Assembly: GCA_028877275.1 (NCBI GenBank)
Contig: JAPPFP010000006.1
Coordinates: 310,001 to 374,000 of the forward strand
Reading direction: 5' to 3'
Source of the DNA: Acidobacteriota bacterium
GTDB lineage: Bacteria; Acidobacteriota; Thermoanaerobaculia; Multivoradales; Multivoraceae
DNA: 64,000 nucleotides
Shown in pieces: positions 51,897-64,000 of the stretch. The number at the start of each line of letters is the position of its first letter. Positions within the stretch are counted from its first letter, which is position 1. The notes under the pieces were generated by a model. That model was not told the origin of the DNA, searched no databases, and worked only from the letters and a program-made list of their open reading frames with translations. The position numbers and the translations under genes are program-made.

Positions 51897-53286
51897 AGGG
51901 GTCGGAGAGTCCGCCGCTGGCCGGTGGCGTCGCCGGTTGCTGGATCTCCTGGGCCGCAACCTCTCGGTCGTGGTGCTCGTCCTCCTCTGCCTGATCTCGA
52001 GCGCGGCGACCTGGCGCGAGCAGAATCCGATCACGAGTCGTTCCGGCGGCGCGGTCGCGCGCCAGGTGCTGGAGGCTTGCCCGGCGCCGTGCTCGGTGCT
52101 CGTCGTGGCGCGGGACACGGAAGCCGACCGGGTATTCGCGCAGGCGATCGAGCAGGGCCTCGACGCTGCCGGAGTCCGGATCGCCGGCCGTGTCTTCGGC
52201 CAGCCGCGCGACGTGCGGCTCGAACTGGAGCGGATCGCCGCGGACGGCGGCTCGCTCGATGCGATCGCCACCCACCGGATCGCGTCCGAGTGGGGACCGG
52301 TACGAACTGCCGGTGTGCGCGTGTTCGCGCCGGGGAGCTACTACTGGCCGACGTTCCTGACGGCCCGCAATCTGCTCAACGTGGTGAACCAGAACGCGGA
52401 CATCGCGATCATCGCGCTCGGCATGACCCTGGTCATCCTGACCGCGGGCATCGACCTCTCCGTCGGCAGTCTGCTGGCGCTGGCCGGCGTGATCACCGCG
52501 GTGGCGGCGCAGGAGTGGTTCGGTGGCGCCGCGGCCTCGCCGGCGGGACTCCTGGCGGCGATGCTCCTGGGTGTCACGGCCGCGGCCCTGGGCGGTCTCC
52601 TGAGCGGAACGATGGTCACCGCGTTCCGGGTGCCGCCGTTCGTCGCCACCCTGGGCCTGATGATGCTCGCCCGCGGACTGGCCCTGATCCTGGCCGTCGG
52701 CCATCAGCGGCGCCTGGTGGGCGGTGGTGCGGAGGGCACCCCGGAGGCCGTGCGTGTCGATGCGGCGGCCTTCGCCTGGCTCGGCAACGGCGCCGTGCTC
52801 GGCGTGCCGAACCCCATCGTGCTCATGCTCGTCCTGTTCGTGGCCGCTCACCTGCTGATGACGCGGACCATGTTCGGACGCTACGTCTACGCCGTCGGCG
52901 GCAACGTCGAGGCCGCGCGCCTGTCGGGCGTGCCGGTGACCGCGGTGCTGCTCACCGTCTACTGCCTGTGCGGGGTCTTCGCCGGCCTGGCGGGGATCGT
53001 CGACGCCTCGCGCTTCGAGGGCGGACGGCCCAACGCCGGCGAGCTCTACGAACTGCAGGTGATCGCCGCCGTGGTGGTCGGCGGCGCGAGCCTGGCGGGC
53101 GGCCGCGGCCGAATCGCGGGGACGCTGATTGGCGCGATGATCATCGCCGTCATCCAGAACGGTCTGAACATCGCGGGTGTCGCCTCCTACGAGCAGAAGG
53201 TGGTGTTCGGGGCCCTGATCCTCGCCGCGGTGCTGCTCGACCGGCTTCAGCCGAGACTCAGACGACTCCGGCGTAAACCCTTGTAG
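51889..53286 (+). CDS. CUT2-type sugar ABC importer permease with unusual N-terminal insert
   Basis: A 465-residue permease, longer than RbsC (about 320). The core, from about residue 165, is typical: NADIAIIALGMTLVILTAGI, DLSVGSLLALAGVITAVA, MFGRYVYAVGGNVEAARLSG and LYELQVIAAVVVGGASLAGG. Between the first membrane helix (NLSVVVLVLLCLISSAATW) and this core is an insert of about 100 residues (CPAPCSVLVVARDTEADR and AQAIEQGLDAAGVRIAGRVF) that resembles half of a periplasmic-binding-protein domain. TTG 51889 is chosen for the GGAGG upstream and the overlap with the ATPase stop. Confidence 0.8.
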
Positions 53287-53329
53287 GAGAAGGGCTTAGC
53301 ATCGGTGTTCGTATCTGTGTAGCCCCCCA

Positions 53330-53356
53330 CTCGACCCCTTGAGCGGGGGAGTCGAG
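53330..53356. terminator. Bidirectional terminator-like hairpin
   Basis: CTCGAC (53330-53335) pairs with GTCGAG (53351-53356), extended by three C:G pairs past a bulge. It lies in the 179-base gap between the sugar permease and the defence operon, which converge here. The rest of the gap shows nothing else I can name. Confidence 0.4.
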
Positions 53357-53465
53357 GCCACCGCGCTGCGTAAGTCATTGAGACCATTGGGCTTCCGGGC
53401 GAGGAGGTCCTAGCCGTTCGGAAGGCCGCACCTACTGCCGCGGACGAGAGCTTCGGGCAGACGCT

Positions 53466-54461
53466 CTAGAACGGGATGTCGTCGTCGAGCCAGTTTGGTG
53501 TCGGCTCTTGCGGTGGGTGTTCCTCCAGCGGAGGCACCGACACGACACGCGGATGCCCCATAGAGAGAAGAAGCATGGAGAGAAACGCCCATAGCCGGTA
53601 GAACAGATAGTCGACGTGTTCGCTAGCGTCCAGACGTTCTTGGTCGGTCTCGGAGTGGCGGATCTGCATGGTGTTGCCGATGTCGGTGAGTTGCTTGGCC
53701 TCGACCTCTAGGAGTTGGAGGTACTTCGTGGAAGAAGAGCCCGCAGCTTCCCTGAGTAGGGCTGTCGCGGATACCTTCTTGTTTGCTCCGGGACGGAGCG
53801 TCTTCAGCCGCTCCCAAGCGCGCCAGAGCGCTTCTAGCGCCTCTCGTCGGACCTCGGCTCTACGATTCAGGAACTTCGTTTGTGCCGTGCTGAGCATCCG
53901 ATCTAGCTCGGGATCGTCGGTGCGGAAGGACATGTCTTCCAGCGTTTTACGGAAGACCGGCTCTACGAGACGTTGGACTTGGCGTTCCTCATTGAGGCGG
54001 TAGGTCACGCCGTTGCGCTCGAAGATCCGATTGATCTCCTCGCGGAACTCCCGCTGGCCCCTTTGCTCGTCGAACTCGAATAGATGCTCATGCATCCCCC
54101 CGTAGTTGTGGTAGGTGCGCCGCACGGGGATGGCAACCTTGCGCGAACAGAACTCGACGAGGTCGAGAATGGACGGGGTGGCTGGAGGGGGTGGCGGATA
54201 CAAGTCGGTGGACGCCAACCATGGCCAGTTGGGCAATCCCGGCACTTCCGCATGCATGGCGTCTCGCAGGCCTTCTTCGTTGGTCCCGGCAATCACTGTT
54301 GCGTTGTTGTCGGTACAGGTGTTGGAGTAGCTCTGGGCGAAGGAGTTGTTGTTCACGCGAGTCTCGATGGCGGCCCGGATCCCGCCCCAAACGCGGTCGT
54401 CGATCTGGTCCGTAGGTTGGGGAGGAACCCTGCCCTCCCGGTCCGAGAAGTAGGAGGTCAT
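53466..54461 (-). CDS. Hypothetical protein in defence operon, possibly AbiJ-related
   Basis: A 331-residue soluble protein, last gene of the restriction/HicBA operon (six bases after hicA). ILDLVEFCSRKVAIPVRRTYH, then the block REFREEINRIFERNGVTYRL and LEVEAKQLTDIGNTMQIRHSE recall proteins annotated near abortive-infection genes with an N-terminal AbiJ-type domain, but this is memory of a pattern, not a search result. The last segment, ASEHVDYLFYRLWAFLSML, is helical. There is no signal or membrane helix. Its place directly after HicA makes a defence role plausible; mechanism unknown. Confidence 0.5.
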   Translation of the reverse strand: MTSYFSDREGRVPPQPTDQIDDRVWGGIRAAIETRVNNNSFAQSYSNTCTDNNATVIAGTNEEGLRDAMHAEVPGLPNWPWLASTDLYPPPPPATPSILDLVEFCSRKVAIPVRRTYHNYGGMHEHLFEFDEQRGQREFREEINRIFERNGVTYRLNEERQVQRLVEPVFRKTLEDMSFRTDDPELDRMLSTAQTKFLNRRAEVRREALEALWRAWERLKTLRPGANKKVSATALLREAAGSSSTKYLQLLEVEAKQLTDIGNTMQIRHSETDQERLDASEHVDYLFYRLWAFLSMLLLSMGHPRVVSVPPLEEHPPQEPTPNWLDDDIPF

Positions 54462-54467
54462 TGTCGC

Positions 54468-54710
54468 TCACAAGTCGAGCCTGCGCAGAAGCTCCTCTGT
54501 CTCCATTTCGTGGTGCCGTGCCACGCTCTTCAGAATGCTCGAGAGCGTCTTCACCTTGATCGCCGCGTGCTGCGGGATCACTTCGTGATGTTCCCCATTG
54601 ACTTGAGTCGTGATCCGCACATGGGAGCCTCGCTGTCGCACGGCGGTGTACCCCAAGCGCCGGAGCGCCGCTTGCAGCGCTGCGCCGCTCACGTTGCGGG
54701 GCAGCTTCAC
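54468..54710 (-). CDS. hicA: HicA-family toxin
   Basis: An 80-residue mRNA interferase-type toxin with a dsRNA-binding-like fold. The conserved glycine-serine-histidine in VRQRGSHVRITT places the catalytic histidine at residue 30; the N-terminal GAALQAALRRLGYTA and the VIPQH motif are also usual. It overlaps the antitoxin gene by four bases (ATGA) and is translated after it. Confidence 0.9.
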   Translation of the reverse strand: MKLPRNVSGAALQAALRRLGYTAVRQRGSHVRITTQVNGEHHEVIPQHAAIKVKTLSSILKSVARHHEMETEELLRRLDL

Positions 54711-54919
54711 GCCACGAGAACCTCGTCTCTAACGAAGTGTAAACGGATCAGTTTGGGCCGCGGCATGGTGTCGTCGAAGTAGCAGTCGACGGCCTCCTTG
54801 ACGTTCCTGCGGACCTCCTCGACGGAGTCGCCTTGTGTGTGGATGCCGTGTCCGAGCGCACTGGCTGAGTACCCACCGTCCACCTCGTCTTCCGTGACTT
54901 CGAAGATGATCTCGGTCAT
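54707..54919 (-). CDS. hicB: HicB-family antitoxin
   Basis: A 70-residue partner of HicA with the partial RNase-H-like fold (IIFEVTEDEVDGGYSASALG, then GDSVEEVRRNVKEAVDCYF). It lacks a C-terminal DNA-binding domain, so it cannot obviously repress its own promoter. Its ATG overlaps the stop of the restriction gene (ATGA at 54919-54916) and its end overlaps hicA by four bases; a longer open frame upstream lies inside the restriction gene and is rejected. Confidence 0.85.
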   Translation of the reverse strand: MTEIIFEVTEDEVDGGYSASALGHGIHTQGDSVEEVRRNVKEAVDCYFDDTMPRPKLIRLHFVRDEVLVA

Positions 54920-57900
54920 ACGTCGTCTCCCGTTCTGTTCGCCGGCTCGTTGCTTACCGTCGGCTCTCTGGAGAGCTTTCGGCGCCACTCTGCGAACTGG
55001 GCCTCGTCGGCATCCAGTGCCATCGCCGCTGCTCTGTCGATGACCCGCCGCACCATGCACTCCTCCGCTTGGCGCATGGGCCGTAACTCCAGTTCGCAGG
55101 CCTGAGTATAGGCGGCCGCTAGGCCGTCCCAGGCCGGGCTGTCGGGCTTGGGGATTCGAATCTCGCGAAGGTGCTCTAGCACCCAGACAGGATAGGTGAG
55201 GGCGCGGGCGCGGCGGTTCAAGAGCATGAGCCGAACCGGAGTCGAGTTGCACCAAGCGGCAAGAGCTGTCGCGGTGTGCTCATCCTCCACTTCAACGGGG
55301 ACCCAGTAGCCGAAAGATGGCGCTGGTGTCCAGACTGCCGTAAGGCGTCCGTTGGTCGTGCGGAACCGGAACGGAAGCAGCAAGTGACTTCGCTGTTCCA
55401 GGTAGCGCTCCGCCAGAGGTTCTTTTCCTGGTCTGGGTTGGTACCAGACGTCGTTCGTACCCCGCATCGTTTGCCGGATCTTGCTGCTGACGGAGTGGAA
55501 GCCGGGGACCGCACCTTCGGCGCTGGCCTCGCATCGACGAAAGGCGTCTTGGACACGTCGGCCTGCTGGTCCAACAGCGTGGCGTGCACCCAGTGGTTCA
55601 AGCCCGGGGGAGTCCTCAATCTCTCTAGCTGCGTGGGCCAAGGACCCGTCGTACCACTGAACGGGCGTCCAGTCGCCGGCTCGCATGCGCTTCTCTGGCC
55701 AGAACGTTCGGCTGGCCCAAGCTTCGCTGCCCGCCGCGATGGCGTCCGCCGCCTCAATCGCTTCCTTTGCCGAAGCCGGCATACGACGGAGCGACACGAA
55801 CTCGGTCGGCGCGGCCTCCGTGCTGCCGTTCCGCCGTCGACAGATGAGCAGTGACTCGTGGATCCCCGTGTTCTCGGAGAAGTTGATGCGTTTCGGGTCG
55901 TGAGAGGTAACGATGCGCTCGATGTGGAAGCGCTCGGCAAGAAAGCGCCGTTCCAATTCTCCAGAGGCGCCGATGCAGGCAGTTGCCGGGAGCACTTCGG
56001 CGATGACACCGCGCTCGTACTGCAGCAACTGATCGGCGAGCGGCGTGAAGGAGGTCCGTATGCTGTTCGCGTTGATCACGTCGCCGGCTTGCTGGTCCCG
56101 TTTCATCAGCTCGTCCCGGATCCGCAGTTCGCGCTCCTGCATCCGCTTCTTGGCGTCGCCCGTGAACTTCTCACCGCGCTTCGTGTTCCGAGTGAAAGGC
56201 GGGTTCATGATCACCAAGTCGACGTCGTTGAGCGGGAAGTCGCTGCCCGCTTCATCCGCCTCCCACGGGGTGCCGAGCGCGTCGGTTCCTTGGAGCTTCG
56301 ACGCCATCTGGAAGAGCGTTGGCTGGAGGCCGTCCTCGCGCTGCCTCAGGATCTCCAGCGACCCTGCGCGCACCGTCTCTTCGTCCTGAGGTCCGTGTTG
56401 CATCGTGTGCAGGTTCATCCGTGCGTAGTCCACCGACGGCGCGCCGAGCGTGAGGTTGCAGGCGGCAAGCTGAACACCGTGGCGGTTGATGTCGAGTCCG
56501 CACAGGACTTCCTGGACCAGGGTTCGGTGTAACTGCTCGTCGCTTCCTTCGCCCAGAGCGCCTACCTCGCGCATCCGTGCCTTGATAGTGCGAAGCGCAG
56601 CCATCAGGAGCGTGCCGGTGCCGCAGGCCGGGTCGATGATCCGCAGCTTCTCCACTGCCTGCGGGTCGCTCCAGTCGACGAACGTCTCGTCGAGTGCGAG
56701 GCGAGCCAGCAGCAGGGCCGAGACGTTGTTCGTGTAGAACGCGCCGTCGCTCTTGGCCGAGCCGAGGATTCGGTGGTAAAGCGGCCCGGCGTGGTCGTAG
56801 CCGAGATCGTTCAGGCTGTCCGCCAAGTTGTCTGCGCACTCCGACAGACCGCGCAGCGCGCTTCGGATTCCCTCGTTCGTAGGAAGGGCGTTGAGCGCGG
56901 CGAGCGCCGGCTCGAACACGGGCTTGTAGTCAAACTCAAGAATTGTGCTCCACGACGCCTTGAGCACACTGGATGGATCGTCCGTCGCCCCGACTCGGCC
57001 GAGGCCGGGCAGCATCCTCATGTCGCGTACGTCGCGCAGGCGGCGGTGCATCAGGCAGGCGTTGCACAGGAGCAGGGCCGCGATGGTTCGGGCTGCCTTC
57101 CGCGCCTGTTCGTTGTCGGCCGGCAGGTCTAGGGCGTCGGCGAGCGGCTCTTCGACTTCTTCGTTCTGGAAGATCTCGGCCGCCCGCTGGACGGCCCAGG
57201 CGATCTCGTCGGCGACCAGCTTGCCGGGCTGGCCGAGGCCCGATGCCGCAGCGACATGGGCAAAGATGCCCTCGTCGGCCGGCTCGAGTTCCAAGTCGTC
57301 GAACAAGCCGGGCGGGTCGTCCCTCGGGTCGCCCGGTGCGTTGGGGTCCGGCTTCGGTTCGTAGACCTGAACGAAGCGCGCGATGTCCTCGTGCAGCCGC
57401 TCGTCGTGCGCCTGCAGGGCCCGCAGCACCTTGCCCAGGGTGTGGTAGCCCTCGCGGCTGTTCCGGAGGGCGTCGGCGACGTCCATGCCAGGCTGAACGA
57501 CGACCGGCACGACGATGTAGCCGAAGTTCTTGTCCTCGGCCCTGCGCATCACGCGGCCGACAGCTTGGACGACATCCACTTGGCTGTCCCGCGGATCGAG
57601 GAAGGCCACAGCGTTGAGGCTGGGAACGTCCACTCCCTCGGTGAAGAGCTTGACGTTGCAGAGAACGCGGAGCGTTCCGTCCTTGCCCGCCGAACTGAGC
57701 CTTCGTAGCGCCTGGCTTCGATCCAGAGCGCTGGCCGAAGCGTCAAGATGCTCAGCTTCGACCGACCAAGCCCTGTCTTCACCCCGGAGCCGTCTTGTCG
57801 TCGCACCTTTGACGAAAGGGTCCATCAGCGCTGCTGCGAACCACTTCGAACGCTTGATGCTGTTCGCGTAGGCCATGGTGCGGGGCAGCCGATCTGGACG

Positions 57901-59337
57901 CTCGATCCCCTTTCCCTCGCTCAGCCCGTTGATCGCCAGGGACACGCCGAGCACGCGGGTGATGTCGTTCATCGTCGGCTGGCTCTTCCTGTCGCCCTCG
58001 GCGAGGCCTTCAAGCCGCGTGCGAAGGCCAGGCGTGACGCGGGACTGGTCTACGCCGAGTACGATGACCCGATAGTCGGAGAGCTTGCCGTCGTCCACGG
58101 CCGTCTTGAAGCGCAGGCGGTGGAACTGAGGGCCGTAGGTCGTTTCGTCGCTCATGTCGACGACCTCGACCTCTCTCTTCGCCAACCGACTCTTGGACTT
58201 CTCCGTGTAGATGCGCGGTGTCGCGGTCATGTACAGGCGTTTGCGCGCTAGCAGGCGTTCCCCATCGTGGACGAGTTGGAAGTCGACTTTCTCGCGCGGA
58301 CGGTTCAACACACCGGTCGTCCGGTGCGCTTCGTCGGCGACCGCCAAGGCGAACGGTTCCACGCCGTAGCGCTCCTGGGCCTCGGTAATGCGCAGGAGCG
58401 ACTGGTAGGTGCAGAACACGACCTTGGTGTGCGGGGCGCTCATCAGCTTGGCCGCGATCTCCTCCGGGTTGGAGACGACCGGGCACTCGAGTTCCGAGAT
58501 GCTGATGTCCTCCTGCTCGTTTCTGCCGCCCGCGTATGGATCGGAACAGACGACCAGTGAGCTCAGGGGCCGAGTCGTGTGGGTAAGCCACTCCCGGCGC
58601 GCCTGTGAGACGAGCGCAATAGTCGGGGCGAGGAACAGGATGGCTTCGCCGGCCGGCACGATCCGCTCCGCGATACGCAGGGCCGTAAACGTCTTGCCAG
58701 TGCCGCAGGCCATGATGAGCCGCCCGCGGTTGTGGTGTTTCAGGCCTTGCAGGACACTCTCGATTGCCTCCTCTTGCAGCGGCCAGGGCTGTCGGACCGG
58801 GCGCTTGACCTCCTTGGCGGTTATGCGCCGGTCCTGGTAGCTGCGGAAGTCGATCCGGCGGATGTTCGTGTCCTGGATCAGATTCTCGGCCGTCCGGCCC
58901 CAACGGGACGTGGTGACGATCCACCGCAGGCCGAAGATCTCTTGTTGCGAGCCAGCCAGGAAACTCTGCACGTCCGCCTTCGTCACGCGGTGGTGGGACG
59001 CGTAGCACTTGCACTGGATAGCGATCAAGGTCCCGTCCTGGTGACGCGCTACCAGGTCCACGCCGATGTCCTGGCCGGACAGGCCCGTTAGGCGCTTGCG
59101 GTCTGGCCACTGCGCCCAGCGCCAGACCTCTTCGAGTTCGAACTCAGGCTCGTTTCGGGCAAGTTGTGCGAAGAGGTTCTCGAACCACTGGCCCTTCTCG
59201 GCTTCAGTGCGGCTGGTGTTGCGAATGCGTCGAAGCAGCTCGCCGGCCGTGAGATCGCCCCAGTCGAGATCCTGATCCGGGGGCGGCGCGCCCAGATCAA
59301 TGGCGGTCTGCACCGGGAGATCCTGCGGTGTCGTCAC
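54916..59337 (-). CDS. Type ISP-like single-polypeptide restriction-modification enzyme
   Basis: A 1473-residue protein carrying nuclease, translocase, methyltransferase and probable target-recognition domains. Residues 88-110 hold an Mrr-type nuclease core (GQDIGVDLVARHQDGTLIAI, then the QCK). The helicase has MACGTGKTFTALR at 209-221, ADEAHRTTG near 334, and VLCNVKLFTEGVDVPSLNAV. Around residue 900 DPACGTGTLLMAAL is SAM motif I and near 1040 VIMNPPFTRN is the adenine-N6 catalytic motif. The last 350 residues should recognise DNA. The order and size match LlaGI-type enzymes. The start is GTG, with no strong ribosome site. Its stop overlaps hicB. Confidence 0.88.
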   Translation of the reverse strand: MTTPQDLPVQTAIDLGAPPPDQDLDWGDLTAGELLRRIRNTSRTEAEKGQWFENLFAQLARNEPEFELEEVWRWAQWPDRKRLTGLSGQDIGVDLVARHQDGTLIAIQCKCYASHHRVTKADVQSFLAGSQQEIFGLRWIVTTSRWGRTAENLIQDTNIRRIDFRSYQDRRITAKEVKRPVRQPWPLQEEAIESVLQGLKHHNRGRLIMACGTGKTFTALRIAERIVPAGEAILFLAPTIALVSQARREWLTHTTRPLSSLVVCSDPYAGGRNEQEDISISELECPVVSNPEEIAAKLMSAPHTKVVFCTYQSLLRITEAQERYGVEPFALAVADEAHRTTGVLNRPREKVDFQLVHDGERLLARKRLYMTATPRIYTEKSKSRLAKREVEVVDMSDETTYGPQFHRLRFKTAVDDGKLSDYRVIVLGVDQSRVTPGLRTRLEGLAEGDRKSQPTMNDITRVLGVSLAINGLSEGKGIERPDRLPRTMAYANSIKRSKWFAAALMDPFVKGATTRRLRGEDRAWSVEAEHLDASASALDRSQALRRLSSAGKDGTLRVLCNVKLFTEGVDVPSLNAVAFLDPRDSQVDVVQAVGRVMRRAEDKNFGYIVVPVVVQPGMDVADALRNSREGYHTLGKVLRALQAHDERLHEDIARFVQVYEPKPDPNAPGDPRDDPPGLFDDLELEPADEGIFAHVAAASGLGQPGKLVADEIAWAVQRAAEIFQNEEVEEPLADALDLPADNEQARKAARTIAALLLCNACLMHRRLRDVRDMRMLPGLGRVGATDDPSSVLKASWSTILEFDYKPVFEPALAALNALPTNEGIRSALRGLSECADNLADSLNDLGYDHAGPLYHRILGSAKSDGAFYTNNVSALLLARLALDETFVDWSDPQAVEKLRIIDPACGTGTLLMAALRTIKARMREVGALGEGSDEQLHRTLVQEVLCGLDINRHGVQLAACNLTLGAPSVDYARMNLHTMQHGPQDEETVRAGSLEILRQREDGLQPTLFQMASKLQGTDALGTPWEADEAGSDFPLNDVDLVIMNPPFTRNTKRGEKFTGDAKKRMQERELRIRDELMKRDQQAGDVINANSIRTSFTPLADQLLQYERGVIAEVLPATACIGASGELERRFLAERFHIERIVTSHDPKRINFSENTGIHESLLICRRRNGSTEAAPTEFVSLRRMPASAKEAIEAADAIAAGSEAWASRTFWPEKRMRAGDWTPVQWYDGSLAHAAREIEDSPGLEPLGARHAVGPAGRRVQDAFRRCEASAEGAVPGFHSVSSKIRQTMRGTNDVWYQPRPGKEPLAERYLEQRSHLLLPFRFRTTNGRLTAVWTPAPSFGYWVPVEVEDEHTATALAAWCNSTPVRLMLLNRRARALTYPVWVLEHLREIRIPKPDSPAWDGLAAAYTQACELELRPMRQAEECMVRRVIDRAAAMALDADEAQFAEWRRKLSREPTVSNEPANRTGDDV

Positions 59338-59644
59338 TTGCTCGGCGCTTGCGCTTTGGATCTACGGCGAGTCGGCAACGAGCGGCTTAGACTGGCTTGT
59401 CCGGGCCCAGCTCGTGTGCTCAGTGTACACGGGGAAGGTGAACCATCGCTGGTAAGCTGACTCCGGTCTGCCACCGCGCCGCAGGCCCCGGGAGGGGCTC
59501 TCTCGTCTCCTTCTGTGGTCAGTAGGAGCCGGTGTTGGAGTCGGAAGCTAGCAGACCCCACGTGCTACGCTCGCTGCGCTCACTTCGCCCGAGGGGCTAG
59601 CGAGGGAGGGCCTGCGGCCCCCCTTCGAACCCCCCCGCCCAGAC
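59338..59644. other. 307-base intergenic region, candidate oriT of the mobilisation module
   Basis: Between the divergent restriction and mobilisation genes. CTCGCT at 59570-59575 is inverted as AGCGAG at 59599-59604, and a G-run/C-run hairpin (GGGAGGGCC, then GGCCCCCC) follows at about 59605-59622, close before the MobC-like start. Inverted repeats directly upstream of mob genes are the usual place of oriT. No nick site can be read with certainty. The left half holds the promoters of the restriction operon and nothing else I can name. Confidence 0.35.
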
Positions 59645-60004
59645 ATGGCCACGCCTCACCGCACAGCGATCGCGCACTGCCGCGTCACCGCGGCCGAGCT
59701 TGAGGTGTGGCGGGCCAAAGCCGAGAGCGCCGGCACGACGCTCTCGGAGTTGATGCGGGCGGCGATGCGCCGCACCCGCACATGGACCGCGGAGGACTCC
59801 GCGGCGGTGCGCGAGCGCACCCGTCAGGTTGCCCGCATCGGGAACAACCTGAACCAAATCGCCCGCTGGGCGAACCGCTACCGCGGCGCCGCCGACGCGG
59901 CCCAGGTGATCGCCCACCTGGTCGCGCTCGATCGCGAGGTCCGCGAGCTGACGCTGACCCGCGATCCCGACCTTCCGCCGCGCGGGGAGGAAGGCCCGTG
60001 CTGA
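59645..60004 (+). CDS. MobC-like relaxosome accessory protein
   Basis: A 119-residue protein resembling MobC/MbeC relaxosome factors: VTAAELEVWRAKAESAGTTL is a ribbon-helix-helix-like DNA-binding start, and RQVARIGNNLNQIARWANRY is the conserved C-terminal block. Such proteins help the relaxase open oriT. It precedes the relaxase gene, overlapping it by seven bases. Confidence 0.85.
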   Translation: MATPHRTAIAHCRVTAAELEVWRAKAESAGTTLSELMRAAMRRTRTWTAEDSAAVRERTRQVARIGNNLNQIARWANRYRGAADAAQVIAHLVALDREVRELTLTRDPDLPPRGEEGPC

Positions 60005-61407
60005 TCACGTTCGCCAAGCACGGCCAGGGCAGCGCGGCGGCCGCGGCGGACTACCTCCTCGCCGACCGCGACCACGCCGGCAAGGCGCGGGCCGAGGTCA
60101 CGGTGCTGCGCGGCGATCCGCACCAGGTCGCACATGTCGCCGACTCCCTGGACTTCGAGCACCGCTACCGCAGCGCCGTGATCGCCTGGGCGCCCGAGGA
60201 TGACCCGACCGACGACCAGATCGACGAGGCGCTCGACCACTTCGAGCGCGTCTCCTGGTCCGGCCTCGAACCGGATCGCTACGCCTGGTCGGCGGTGCTC
60301 CACCGCGACGATGACGGCGGAGCCCACGTGCATGTCCTGGTCGCCCGCGTAGAGCTTCTGACGGGCAAGAGCCACAACATCGCCCCGCCCGGCTGGGAGG
60401 GGACGTACGGCCTGCTGGAGCGGGCGCTGAACCACGAACACGGCTGGGCGCGGCCGGACGACCCGGACCGCGCCCGCACTACCCGGCCGGGCCGTTTCCC
60501 GGCCGACGCCGCCGACCGCGACGCCATCGACGGCTACCTCCGCCAGCGCGTCGCCGCCGGTCTCGTCCACGACCGCGTCGGCGTGGTCGCCGCGTTCGAG
60601 GAGGCCGGCTACGAGGTGCCGCGCCAAGGCAAGAGCTATATCACCGTGGCGCACCCGGAGACCGGGCAGCGGTTGCGGCTGAAAGGAACCCTCTATGAGC
60701 GAGACTTCCAGGCCATCGAGCTTCGCGGCCGACTTGACCGAGAAGACGGCGCAGGACAAACAGGCGATTCGGGACTATCGGCAGGAGATCCAGGACACGG
60801 CGAAGGAGGAGATGCGCGAGCTAGCGCGCGAGCTTGGCGAGACCTCGATGCGATATGCCGCAGACGGTCTGAAGCGAATCGAGAGCGGTATGCGCACCGA
60901 TCACCGGAGCACGGCCCGGATGCTCGGGATGCTATGGCTCCGGACCGCGCTGATCGGGTTCGGAGTCTTCATGGCCATCTGGTGGGGGCTCTGGGCGATG
61001 GGGCGGTGGCAGCAGAACCAGATCAGGGAGAACATCGAGTTCCTGCAGTACCTCGAGCGGCAGATCGAAGAGCGGAACCAGACCCTCGACGAACTGAGCC
61101 AGGAGGTGGAGTAGACGATGACCGAACTGGAACGCTTGCTCGCCGCATCCTTGAAGAGGCTCGACGAAGAGCACGCCGCGTCCGTCGCGCAGTTGAACGA
61201 GTCCGTCTGGCAGTTGAACGGTCGGGTCGACGCTTTGCTGACCGACTATCAACAGCTCGTGGGCGAGTACGAGAGGTTGGCGACCGCGTACAGGCGGCTC
61301 GAAGGCGACATGAACTCAATCGTCCGCGCATCGAGCGGACGGTGAGCCGGCTCCGCCAGATCGCCAGGGAAGACCGAGACCGAGACGGGCCTGATTGGAG
61401 CCGCTGA
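59998..61407 (+). CDS. MobA/MbeA-like relaxase
   Basis: A 469-residue relaxase starting at GTG 59998. The catalytic histidine triad is seen in HRDDDGGAHVHVLVARVEL, and the conserved LTGKSHNIAPPGWEG follows; an N-terminal tyrosine (AADYLL) is the likely nicking residue. The C-terminal half is Arg/Asp-rich and disordered, and it is here that two other genes are read in the +1 frame. It should nick oriT and pilot the DNA strand during mobilisation by a helper conjugation system. No coupling protein or mating-pair genes are seen, so it would be mobilisable rather than self-transferable. Confidence 0.85.
   Translation: MLITFAKHGQGSAAAAADYLLADRDHAGKARAEVTVLRGDPHQVAHVADSLDFEHRYRSAVIAWAPEDDPTDDQIDEALDHFERVSWSGLEPDRYAWSAVLHRDDDGGAHVHVLVARVELLTGKSHNIAPPGWEGTYGLLERALNHEHGWARPDDPDRARTTRPGRFPADAADRDAIDGYLRQRVAAGLVHDRVGVVAAFEEAGYEVPRQGKSYITVAHPETGQRLRLKGTLYERDFQAIELRGRLDREDGAGQTGDSGLSAGDPGHGEGGDARASARAWRDLDAICRRRSEANRERYAHRSPEHGPDARDAMAPDRADRVRSLHGHLVGALGDGAVAAEPDQGEHRVPAVPRAADRRAEPDPRRTEPGGGVDDDRTGTLARRILEEARRRARRVRRAVERVRLAVERSGRRFADRLSTARGRVREVGDRVQAARRRHELNRPRIERTVSRLRQIAREDRDRDGPDWSR
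60695..61114 (+). CDS. MbeB-like mobilisation protein nested inside relaxase gene
   Basis: A 139-residue protein wholly inside the relaxase gene, in the +1 frame. AAAGGAA at 60682-60688 lies six bases before its ATG. It is helical and charged at the N-terminus (SSFAADLTEKTAQDKQAIRD), has one membrane segment (LRTALIGFGVFMAIWWGLWA) and ends in a coiled coil (QYLERQIEERNQTLDELSQE). ColE1 MbeB has the same size class, position and layout, and it is thought to link the relaxosome to the membrane. Confidence 0.8.
   Translation: MSETSRPSSFAADLTEKTAQDKQAIRDYRQEIQDTAKEEMRELARELGETSMRYAADGLKRIESGMRTDHRSTARMLGMLWLRTALIGFGVFMAIWWGLWAMGRWQQNQIRENIEFLQYLERQIEERNQTLDELSQEVE
61118..61345 (+). CDS. MbeD-like mobilisation protein nested inside relaxase gene
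   Basis: A 75-residue coiled-coil protein, in the same +1 frame as the MbeB-like gene and wholly inside the relaxase gene. AGGAGGT at 61101-61107 is a full ribosome site ten bases before ATG 61118. MTELERLLAASLKRLDEEHA closely follows the start of ColE1-type MbeD proteins, which are also helical and nested. In ColE1, MbeD contributes to mobilisation and to entry exclusion. Confidence 0.8.
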   Translation: MTELERLLAASLKRLDEEHAASVAQLNESVWQLNGRVDALLTDYQQLVGEYERLATAYRRLEGDMNSIVRASSGR

Positions 61408-61526
61408 AGACCTGCCGCTGTTCTGCGGTTCATAACAGATGCGAGACCCGGCGATCAGGACCAGGACGAACGCGAGGATCAGACCGCCGATCACCACACT
61501 TGGCGACGACGTTCAGGAGGCACCTT

Positions 61527-61846
61527 TCAGTGTTTCCTGCGGTAGTCGCGCCGGTCAAGGCACTGATGGTTGAGTGTTCGGTCGATCCTGATCCAGTCGG
61601 TCTTGTCGATCCCCCTGCGGTTGCGGCTGGCAGGGCTCTGCGGAAAGGCACTGGCAATCTTGATCCACCGTCCTTGGTCACGCGCGATTGCCCGGACCTG
61701 CTCGGCGACCTCTGAGAGATCTGGTCTTGGCTCAGGACGATGGCTACGTCGTACTCGCGACGATGAGCCAAGGCGATCACATCAAGCGCGATCCGCACGT
61801 CGATCCCCTTCTCTTCCCGGTCAGCAGAGAGTGTTGCGTATCCCCC
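61527..61846 (-). pseudogene. NYN-domain protein, frameshifted and N-terminally truncated
   Basis: Reading leftward, one frame gives DREEKGIDVRIALDVIALA and YDVAIVLSQDQ; after about 61720 the following frame gives DLSEVAEQVRAIARDQGRW, IKIASAFPQSPASRNRRGI and DKTDWIRIDRTLN, ending at 61527. Joined, they form the core and tail of an NYN (PIN-like) nuclease-domain protein. Loss of one G at the junction accounts for the shift. The frame is closed upstream by a TAG at 61849-61847, where a transposase remnant begins, so insertion probably removed the N-terminus and the shift followed. Confidence 0.75.
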
Positions 61847-61847
61847 C

Positions 61848-62366
61848 TACGAGCCGCTTGAAGGGCCGGTAGAGGCCGGTGAGTCGTTCGTGGGTGGCAA
61901 GCGGAAGAACATGCCTGCCTCGAAGCGCCGCACGCTGGACGGGCGCGGCACTACCGGGAAGAAGGCGGTGGTCGGCGTGAAGGACCGAAAGACGAAAAAG
62001 GTCCGAGCCAGGGTCGTAGAGAACACCGACGCGATGACGCTACAGGGCTTCGTTCGGCGCAACGTCGAGGGCGGCTTCACCGTCTACACAGACGAGCATC
62101 CGTCCTACACGGGGCTTGCGGAGAGACTACGAGCATGACAGTGTTGCTCACGGGGTCGGCGAGTACGTGAAGGACATTGACGTTCACACGAACGGGATTG
62201 AGTCCCTGTGGAGTATGTTCAAGCGGGGCTACATCGGACTTACCACCGGATGAGCTTCAAGCACCTACACCGCTACGTCAACGAGTTTGCCGGCCGACCC
62301 AACATTCGCGACCTGGATACGCTAGAAACGACGATAGATGACCTACTACACGATCCGAACTACTGA
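61848..62366 (+). pseudogene. Degenerate IS1595-family transposase
   Basis: C-terminal half of an IS1595-type transposase in at least three frames. The first reads VEAGESFVGGKRKNMPASKR, then KKAVVGVKDRKTKKVRARVV and VYTDEHPSYTGL; the second HGVGEYVKDIDVHTNGIESL and WSMFKRGY; the third YHRMSFKHLHRYVNEFAGRP, ending at 62366. The first catalytic Asp, expected in 'VE-x-DET', is Gly here, so the copy was dead even before the frameshifts. It is a different subfamily from the intact copy at 5039. Confidence 0.8.
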
Positions 62367-62439
62367 TGCCTCTATCGACTGTGAGGGCAATGCATACAAT
62401 TCCGCAACTGCGCCTCGATACTCGTCGATTGGAGAAGCT

Positions 62440-63357
62440 ATGAGCGTCATGGATCAACGAGATCACGCTGGCTATCGGATTCTCGATGACCAGCAGCAGA
62501 TGGTGATTTCGGTTGGACCTACGCCCGCAGGCCCTGTCTGCGCGTGTCTGCTTGGTGTGGGTTTCGCCGAAGCTATTGAAAGAGAAGGAGTCCTTTTCAA
62601 GCGTCTCGATATGCCGCTACGCAAGGATTACACCCACGCGCCCGTCGATCCGCCTAGCCAGAAGTTCTGTACTCTCATGGTTGAAGTGGATCCAGGGGTG
62701 GTGAGGAACATTTCCGGTCTTTGTCATGCCCTGTCGTTGGTGCTTGGTTGCTGTGTGGAATGGAAGCACTGGTGGCGAGTTTGGGGAGGCAACAAGCCGA
62801 TAAACAAAATGTCAGGCGTGGCTCAGTGGACAAGCAACGTCGAATGCAAGGGGTGGCCTCTCAAATGGAGTCCGTCCTTGTCAGCGGCAGATGCGGACAA
62901 GGCGCTCAGCTTGTATCACTCCATGCGTGACATGGACAGCGCGGAGTTGAGAGTGGCCGTTCGGCGTTGGCATCGTTCGATTCAGAGGTGGAATCAGGTA
63001 CGGAACGGGTCACTCCCGTTTGGGGAAGACTTCGTGGATTCTCTAGTTGACCTGCGGGTTGCGCTAGAGTCGGTCTTCTTGGGGGAGGCGGGGCGGTCCT
63101 TTAGTGTAGCTCTGTGTGGAGCGTGGAGTTTGGGTCGGAATCCGAGTGAGAGAAGGCGCTACTTTGACGCCCTGAAGCAGGCTTATTCTCATTCATCGCG
63201 CGCTGTACACACCGGCCGCGCTGACGTACAGAAGTACTTACCATCTCTGGCTGACGGACAGGACGCCTGTCGAAAAGGGCTTGTGAAGTGGATCGAAGGG
63301 AAGCGCAGGCCGAGTGGCGACACGTTAGACGACATGCTAGACCTTGTGCTCGGATGA
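62440..63357 (+). CDS. Protein with likely ApeA/HEPN-like C-terminal domain
   Basis: A 305-residue protein from ATG 62440, which follows GGAGAAGCT at an ideal distance; an ATG at 62338 would add 34 residues overlapping the transposase remnant. The middle holds tryptophan-rich segments (CCVEWKHWWRVWGG). The last third, LVDLRVALESVFLGE, then FSVALCGAWSLGRNPSERRR and YFDALKQAYSHSSRAVHTGR, has the helical pattern and the terminal R-x4-H of HEPN-type RNases seen in abortive-infection proteins. GC content is markedly lower than elsewhere in the window, a sign of transfer. A defence role is inference. Confidence 0.5.
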   Translation: MSVMDQRDHAGYRILDDQQQMVISVGPTPAGPVCACLLGVGFAEAIEREGVLFKRLDMPLRKDYTHAPVDPPSQKFCTLMVEVDPGVVRNISGLCHALSLVLGCCVEWKHWWRVWGGNKPINKMSGVAQWTSNVECKGWPLKWSPSLSAADADKALSLYHSMRDMDSAELRVAVRRWHRSIQRWNQVRNGSLPFGEDFVDSLVDLRVALESVFLGEAGRSFSVALCGAWSLGRNPSERRRYFDALKQAYSHSSRAVHTGRADVQKYLPSLADGQDACRKGLVKWIEGKRRPSGDTLDDMLDLVLG

Positions 63358-63445
63358 AGGGATGGCAACTACTCCGTATAATCCCCTTTGCGAACGCGAG
63401 GAGACCGGACCCGTCTATACGGGTGAGGAATAGGCCGGGTTAAAC

Positions 63446-64000
63446 GTGAGCATCAGAGATATTCTAGACCTTGGTGTTGATGAGAAGCTGAGGTCTGGTG
63501 AAGCGAAGACGCGGGACGAGGCTAGGGCTTTGGTGTCGGCCGAGCTGGAAAGGAAGAACGCCGAACAGCAGCAGGCTCGTTTCGAGAAGATGGTTGAAGC
63601 GGGCGAAGCGGCGTCCGTTGACGAAGCGCGAGCTATCGTCGTGGACCGGACGGAGAGAGCCGTTAATGCCGCAATGGACGCCATTCGCTCTGCGGCAGAG
63701 ATGCCGAGTGGCGTTCAGTCCGCCTTGGACCGTATTGCTGGAGCGTCAAGTGAATACGCTGCGCTTCAGGAACGTCTGTCTAGTATCACCAGCGAGGCGG
63801 CACGGCTGGCGAAGCGCGAGGCCGTGAGCTTTGACGCCTATCGACCGCAGGCTGCTGTGAAGTTGCCGGAAGTCAGACTGCACAACCCTGTGTTCGATCT
63901 GATAGAGGTTACGAGGGAACTTGTTGGGGCGGTTGGCGCAGTTGAGGGTGCGGTCAACGAGGTCCGAAAGGAGCAGAGGCAACAGGGCAAGGCTACTAGG
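63446..64000 (+). CDS. Coiled-coil protein, truncated by window end
   Basis: An open frame from GTG 63446 to the last base of the window, 185 codons with no stop. It is largely helical and charged (DEARALVSAELERKNAEQQQ, SSEYAALQERLSSITSEAAR, ELVGAVGAVEGAVNEVRKEQ) and probably forms a long coiled coil. No motif is seen in this part. A TATAAT word lies at 63377-63382 and a small hairpin (ACCCGT, CTAT, ACGGGT at 63409-63424) precedes the start. It lies 88 bases after the HEPN-like gene in the same low-GC block and may be its partner. Confidence 0.5.
   Translation, partial: MSIRDILDLGVDEKLRSGEAKTRDEARALVSAELERKNAEQQQARFEKMVEAGEAASVDEARAIVVDRTERAVNAAMDAIRSAAEMPSGVQSALDRIAGASSEYAALQERLSSITSEAARLAKREAVSFDAYRPQAAVKLPEVRLHNPVFDLIEVTRELVGAVGAVEGAVNEVRKEQRQQGKATR

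Follow-up and report, generated by a model that had tools for sequence, protein, structure and literature searches.

The window is a 64,000-nt stretch (G000:C17:310001-374000) of a 799,895-base contig, and a mobilisation module lies near its right end (Table 1). mobC overlaps the relaxase gene, which starts with the GTG at 59998, by 7 nt. Two complete ORFs are wholly contained in the 3' half of the relaxase gene in the +1 frame, and each is preceded by a ribosome site (AAAGGAA before 60695 and AGGAGGT before 61118). The limits of the module (59645-61407), its mobC, relaxase and nested ORFs, and the two ribosome sites are as described in the first-pass annotation. Motif III had been given there as HxDx4HxH, and the actual reading is HxDx5HxH. 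The relaxase scores 25.8 bits against the Pfam Relaxase (MobA/VirD2) model, narrowly above the cut-off of 24.6. The nearest NCBIfam model is MbeA of ColE1 (MbeA_E1; E 6.2e-27), at 94.9 bits and far below its cut-off of 500. Searching the same genome for a second copy of the module returned just short 75-80% matches.

Table 1. Features of the element in window coordinates.
Feature	Position	Strand	Description
attL core CGACCGGCTTCAGCCGA	53238..53254		3' end of ABC-transporter permease gene
Element, part within window	53255..64000		whole element to ~65651, 12.4 kb
AbiJ-like cargo gene	53466..54461	-	Pfam AbiJ_NTD4 4.9e-13; PADLOC PDC-S32 1.5e-50
Single-chain restriction enzyme-methyltransferase	54916..59337	-	Mrr nuclease, DEAD helicase, N6 methylase; Pfam Mrr_cat_2 7.4e-26, ResIII, N6_Mtase; PADLOC REase_MTase_IIG 1.1e-159
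Candidate oriT	59543..59634	+	large bulged hairpin (GCTAGC...GCTAGC), then small G/C hairpin GAGGGAGGGCCTGCGGCCCCCCTTC, then ACCCCC
mobC	59645..60004	+	119 aa; Pfam MobC 3.7e-13, NikA-like 4.3e-13; predicted relaxosome protein, MobC/NikA-like; counterpart of MbeC
MOBP relaxase, MbeA-like	59998..61407	+	469 aa; catalytic Tyr19; motif III HRDDDGGAHVH
Nested gene 1, MbeB-like	60695..61114	+	139 aa; family profile, conserved frame
Nested gene 2, MbeD-like	61118..61345	+	75 aa; begins MTELE; coiled-coil-like; family profile
Tyrosine integrase, P4-type	64301-65461, past window	-	Arm-DNA-bind_3, Phage_int_M, Phage_integrase
attL partner CGACCGATTTCAGCCGA	65652-65668, just past window end		17-bp direct repeat

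The module lies within an element bounded by 17-bp att repeats that differ by two mismatches. Beyond the window the integrase gene adjoins aroE, a name taken from the sequence rather than from a profile search. In six congeners (G089, G135, G207, G400, G262 and G176) the permease and aroE flanks meet with one copy of the 17-bp sequence between them. The sequence is duplicated in five genomes (G000, the genome of the window, G108, G126, G214 and G402), with the copies 12.4 to 19.1 kb apart. The first-pass annotation had left it between an integrated module and a plasmid; the integrase, the att repeats and the six empty sites decide for integration. The site is the 3' end of the permease gene, and no tRNA was found in any flank searched. 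The genomes compared are draft assemblies or MAGs, and those bearing the element are presumably sponge symbionts, judging from the record names.

The integrase and mob module are common to the five elements at this site, and much else differs between them. The G214 element has a restriction region in common with G000 (Table 1), the G126 element carries a type I restriction system, and the cargo of G108 includes a candidate defence pair of the PDC-M30/M41 kind. A related module is found elsewhere in the G207 genome and is accompanied there by a different integrase from the same class. The relaxase is present in 1 of the 210 genera sampled in the phylum and in 11 of the 21 genomes of that genus.

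Other sequences were noted within the elements. Fragments of an IS1595-family transposase, apparently split over two frames, lie just downstream of the mob module (61890-62366; Pfam DDE_Tnp_IS1595 3.9e-14). Two ORFs of unidentified cargo, whose DNA is lower in GC (0.56-0.60; 62338-63357 and 63446 to beyond 64000), occupy the interval between this remnant and the integrase and gave no convincing Pfam, NCBIfam or PADLOC match. The G214 element has a full relaxase copy near its right end and a relaxase fragment near its left end (L014 5996-6135, G214:C86), which may stem from an earlier element or from recombination.

Its own integrase and relaxase, the att direct repeats and the empty sites, together with an oriT candidate and no recognised gene of a type IV secretion system (T4SS), point to an integrative and mobilisable element (IME). 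The module is very probably the mobilisation part of this IME, whose cargo is swappable and largely anti-phage. Sequence comparison of the borders, the integrase, the gene content, the nested frames, the hairpin site and the resident T4SS genes supports this reading. An unlikely alternative is that the module is intact in sequence and the element is a decayed relic that no longer moves. The IS1595 fragments and the relaxase fragment in G214 point in that direction, as do the two mismatches between the att repeats, which suggest that the insertion may be old. Against decay, the integrase, mobC, the relaxase and both nested ORFs are all open and the relaxase is under constraint. The G000 and G108 modules are 95% identical compared with 88-93% for the left flanking chromosome, and the cargo at the same site varies between species.

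An IME depends on a T4SS supplied in trans, and the genome of the window has a candidate. A 58.8-kb contig, C1 (L068/L060/L061), encodes RepA and homologues of VirB4, VirB6, VirB9, VirB10, VirB11 and VirD4. It also carries a relative of the G108 ArdC, a tyrosine recombinase, a BsuBI/PstI-type restriction gene and several repeated segments. Pfam models PF02534 and PF03135 had matched nothing in this genome; the G108 VirB4 query finds a 98% relative, so the Pfam result was a false negative. Searches for MobA/MobL, TrwC and TraI_2 relaxases found none in the genome, and PF03432 matches only the window locus. The MbeA-like relaxase is the sole one detected in the genome among the four families searched. 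Within the genus, the relaxase is present in 6 of the 7 genomes with a T4SS (one-sided p=0.04, a value that ignores relatedness). The covariance model described below gave no oriT of the window type on C1.

A relaxase of this type also occurs on one contig with secretion genes. A second G108 relaxase, 56% identical and with nested mbeB/mbeD-like genes (L031 6744-8801), lies on a 71-kb contig (G108:C3) that also encodes VirB4, VirD4 and VirB11 homologues ~20 kb or more away. G108:C3 is possibly a self-transmissible plasmid that uses the window relaxase type. Circularity was examined for this contig and for G386:C7, and end overlap was absent from both. The association on G108:C3 would suit a window module that is a fragment of an integrated conjugative element or plasmid formerly equipped with its own T4SS. 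This origin is improbable, considering the distance between relaxase and T4SS genes on G108:C3 and the att-bounded interval of the window element, in which no T4SS gene was recognised. A mobilisable element that borrows a T4SS remains the preferred reading.

Open frames alone prove little about the nested ORFs because synonymous shuffles often keep them open in 62-73% GC DNA. Shuffling the window relaxase codons (5000 trials) left nested frame 1 open in 37% of trials, frame 2 in 17% and both in 5%. Judged on the window by itself, the pair of open frames does not reach significance. Comparison with relatives is more informative. Ten modules were tested in full, from Acidobacteriota, Gemmatimonadota, proteobacterial plasmids and ColE1, with relaxase identity down to ~30%. 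The relatives were drawn from congeneric species, the second G108 module, Gemmatimonadota MAGs and plasmids of Methylomarinovum, Aeromonas, Halomonas and Polaromonas. In 10/10 relaxase genes, ColE1 included, the frame, place and order of the two nested ORFs agree. Measured from the start of the relaxase gene, nested ORF 1 begins at offset 697 in closely related acidobacterial modules and at ~690-770 elsewhere, and nested ORF 2 begins almost always with (M/V)TELE, MTDLE or M(A)TEIE. The ribosome sites of both are conserved in close relatives.

Substitutions between congeners fall mainly at third positions in the N-terminal part of the relaxase and at all three positions in the overlap. Fewer third-position changes occur inside the overlap than outside it: for G126-G400, 4/216 codons against 30/232 (p=7e-6). 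The depletion has p<0.01 in four of the five congener pairs (7e-6 to 6e-3). The spread of substitutions and the depletion of third-position changes indicate two coding frames in one stretch. The first-pass annotation had proposed nested genes and named conservation of the frame in related relaxase genes as a check, which came out in favour of the genes.

The identity of the nested proteins emerges at the level of the family. Window nested protein 1 alone matches no MbeB model of Pfam or NCBIfam, and nested protein 2 alone has a weak match to MbeD models (E 0.35). Family profiles built from 12-13 members match ColE1 MbeB (probability 96.8, E 2.5e-10) and ColE1 MbeD (probability 94.7, E 6e-8). 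Profile scores of 67 for MbeB and 42 for MbeD exceed the maxima of 35 and 20 reached in 300 shuffles each. With acidobacterial members only, the scores are 45 and 28 against shuffle maxima of 29 and 17. Pfam MbeD_MobD is matched by 4 of the 12 MbeD-like members (best 1.5e-7), and relatives give 1.5e-7 and 4.5e-7 across the Pfam and NCBIfam MbeD models. An MbeB call through Pfam or NCBIfam fails, with no MbeB match in any of the 13 members. Hydropathy predicts a membrane segment near residues 77-100 of the MbeB-like protein. The C-terminal TWGVE...LPxG motif of ColE1 MbeB is absent from the window protein, and a similar stretch is present in longer MbeB-like members (G108 C3, G396, G401, Gemmatimonadota and Methylomarinovum). 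The proposed ColE1 layout with nested MbeB- and MbeD-like genes is upheld by profiles, conservation and synonymous-site tests, and the profile search that had been suggested succeeds through family profiles rather than with the window proteins singly.

Frame conservation, synonymous-position depletion and the MbeB/MbeD family profile matches identify both nested ORFs as real genes on comparative grounds. The idea that they are high-GC by-products of the relaxase C-terminal region draws on the shuffles that leave the frames open and on the window proteins that singly lack a significant match to MbeB or MbeD models. It is extremely unlikely given the same frame, order and similar offset in modules with only 30-60% relaxase identity, the ribosome sites of close relatives, the depleted third positions and family profiles that match ColE1 MbeB and MbeD with scores exceeding the shuffles.

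The ColE1 mob region (oriT-mbeC-mbeA with nested mbeB and mbeD) has the same gene order and +1 nesting as the window. Both also have the first nested gene starting near relaxase codon 230, Tyr19, an (M/V)TELE start of MbeD and a membrane segment in MbeB. The ColE1 region differs in being plasmid-borne and in its HEN motif III, whereas the window module is integrated and HHH, and its relaxase is 32% identical over the N-terminal part. The window MbeB is shorter than that of ColE1 and the sequence upstream of mobC is different. Tyr19 is invariant across the aligned relaxases, including ColE1 MbeA, and the histidine triad of motif III is common to the window relaxase and all relatives aligned, ColE1 excepted. 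MbeA is without two of the motif III histidines (PMC3447787). The HEN motif has no match in the window relaxase, which has HRDDDGGAHVH where ColE1 MbeA has HQDKGRLELN; judged by motif III, the window relaxase is therefore placed outside MOB-HEN. From its sequence, it probably works like MbeA.

The module had been called ColE1-style; its relaxase is an HHH enzyme, and the plasmids with the closest relatives of it come from Methylomarinovum, Aeromonas, Halomonas and Polaromonas. The Aeromonas plasmid modules have 42-46% relaxase identity, and in the one read, mobC precedes the relaxase, motif III is HHH and nested ORFs are present. If a ColE1-type module had been acquired recently from Enterobacteria, this would account for the shared gene order, nesting and frame. 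Such an acquisition is scarcely credible with only 32% identity to the N-terminal part of ColE1 MbeA, HHH instead of HEN, and relatives in Gemmatimonadota (64 and 58%) and Methylomarinovum (59%) that stand closer. The distribution is patchy and crosses phyla; it gives no direction and does not demonstrate an enterobacterial origin.

The modules other than ColE1 have a hairpin directly upstream of mobC, followed by a small G/C hairpin and ACCCC. A covariance model of this unit was trained only on Candidatus Palauibacter (Gemmatimonadota) and four proteobacterial plasmids, with no acidobacterial sequence. Its best match in the window is at 59543-59634 (29.1 bits, E 0.0012). Over 306,597 bases of other sequence, the nine best matches and 12 of the 15 in total are at the conserved position upstream of mobC, the window site among them. 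Several stem positions change on both sides, exceeding slid and shuffled controls, in an alignment that is model-fitted and includes three off-site matches. The same small hairpin is found in the predicted oriT of Paracoccus MOBP5 plasmids and pAsal2 (PMC3832669). The Paracoccus prediction is likewise upstream of mobC, and its small hairpin, given for the mobC strand, is GAGGGGGCC...GGCCCCCTTCA. These comparisons make the hairpin site a candidate oriT. A ColE1-like CTGGCTT string at 59392 was considered as nic and rejected; it does not belong to the conserved unit and has a counterpart in G214 alone.

The steps of transfer can be proposed from ColE1, the IME literature and general knowledge. 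The integrase would excise the element as a circle, and MobC and the relaxase would bind the hairpin oriT and nick it via Tyr19. Docking of the relaxosome at a coupling protein may be helped by the MbeB-like protein, anchored in the membrane, and by the MbeD-like protein. The strand would exit through a T4SS provided in trans, for which the resident RepA plasmid (C1) is the most likely source. A broader and rather doubtful reading is that sponge-symbiont IMEs shuttle interchangeable anti-phage systems across species, relying on a relaxase-less T4SS plasmid. As part of the same reading, the resident secretion system may have no DNA-processing partner other than the IME, the T4SS plasmid being without a relaxase of its own. 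If true, this would be a division of labour between island and plasmid.

Nested mob genes, Aeromonas-type MOBP modules and MobP-bearing IMEs are each already known singly (PMC3832669, PMC3447787, PMC5704250 and the ColE1 record). Modules related to Aeromonas pAsal2 and Paracoccus pMARC2/pAES4 are assigned to MOBP5 (PMC3832669). MOBP5 modules are on small replicating proteobacterial plasmids, whereas that of the window belongs to a chromosomal element in Acidobacteriota that has an integrase and carries defence genes. The MobP IMEs NBU1, NBU2, Tn4555 and Tn4399 of Bacteroides have their own integrase and relaxase, lack a T4SS and are helper-dependent (PMC5704250). They resemble the window element in integrase, MobP relaxase and lack of a T4SS; they belong to another phylum, and unlike them the window element has ColE1-type nested mbeB/mbeD accessory genes. 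The word Acidobacteria is absent from that IME review (PMC5704250). The open-licence literature searched gave no report of all three together in a chromosomal element of Acidobacteriota whose defence cargo is exchangeable. These modules extend the ColE1 gene-within-gene mobilisation design to Acidobacteriota and Gemmatimonadota, and to a chromosome-borne element driven by an integrase. Elements of this kind are a concrete means through which uncultured sponge symbionts could swap defence genes, among them those for restriction-modification.

One of the overlapping genes is often missing from public gene tables, and several plasmids with a complete module are typed non-mobilisable. For L003, L004 and ColE1 (L069), the PLSDB gene tables, whose incompleteness is known, contain MobC and both nested genes and omit the relaxase. 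For L002 the relaxase is entered as hypothetical and the nested genes are missing; L002-L004 are typed non-mobilisable. The relaxase of Polaromonas pPNAP08 (L005 1941-4427) is a fusion with a toprim-domain part, and the nested mbeB- and mbeD-like ORFs are retained.
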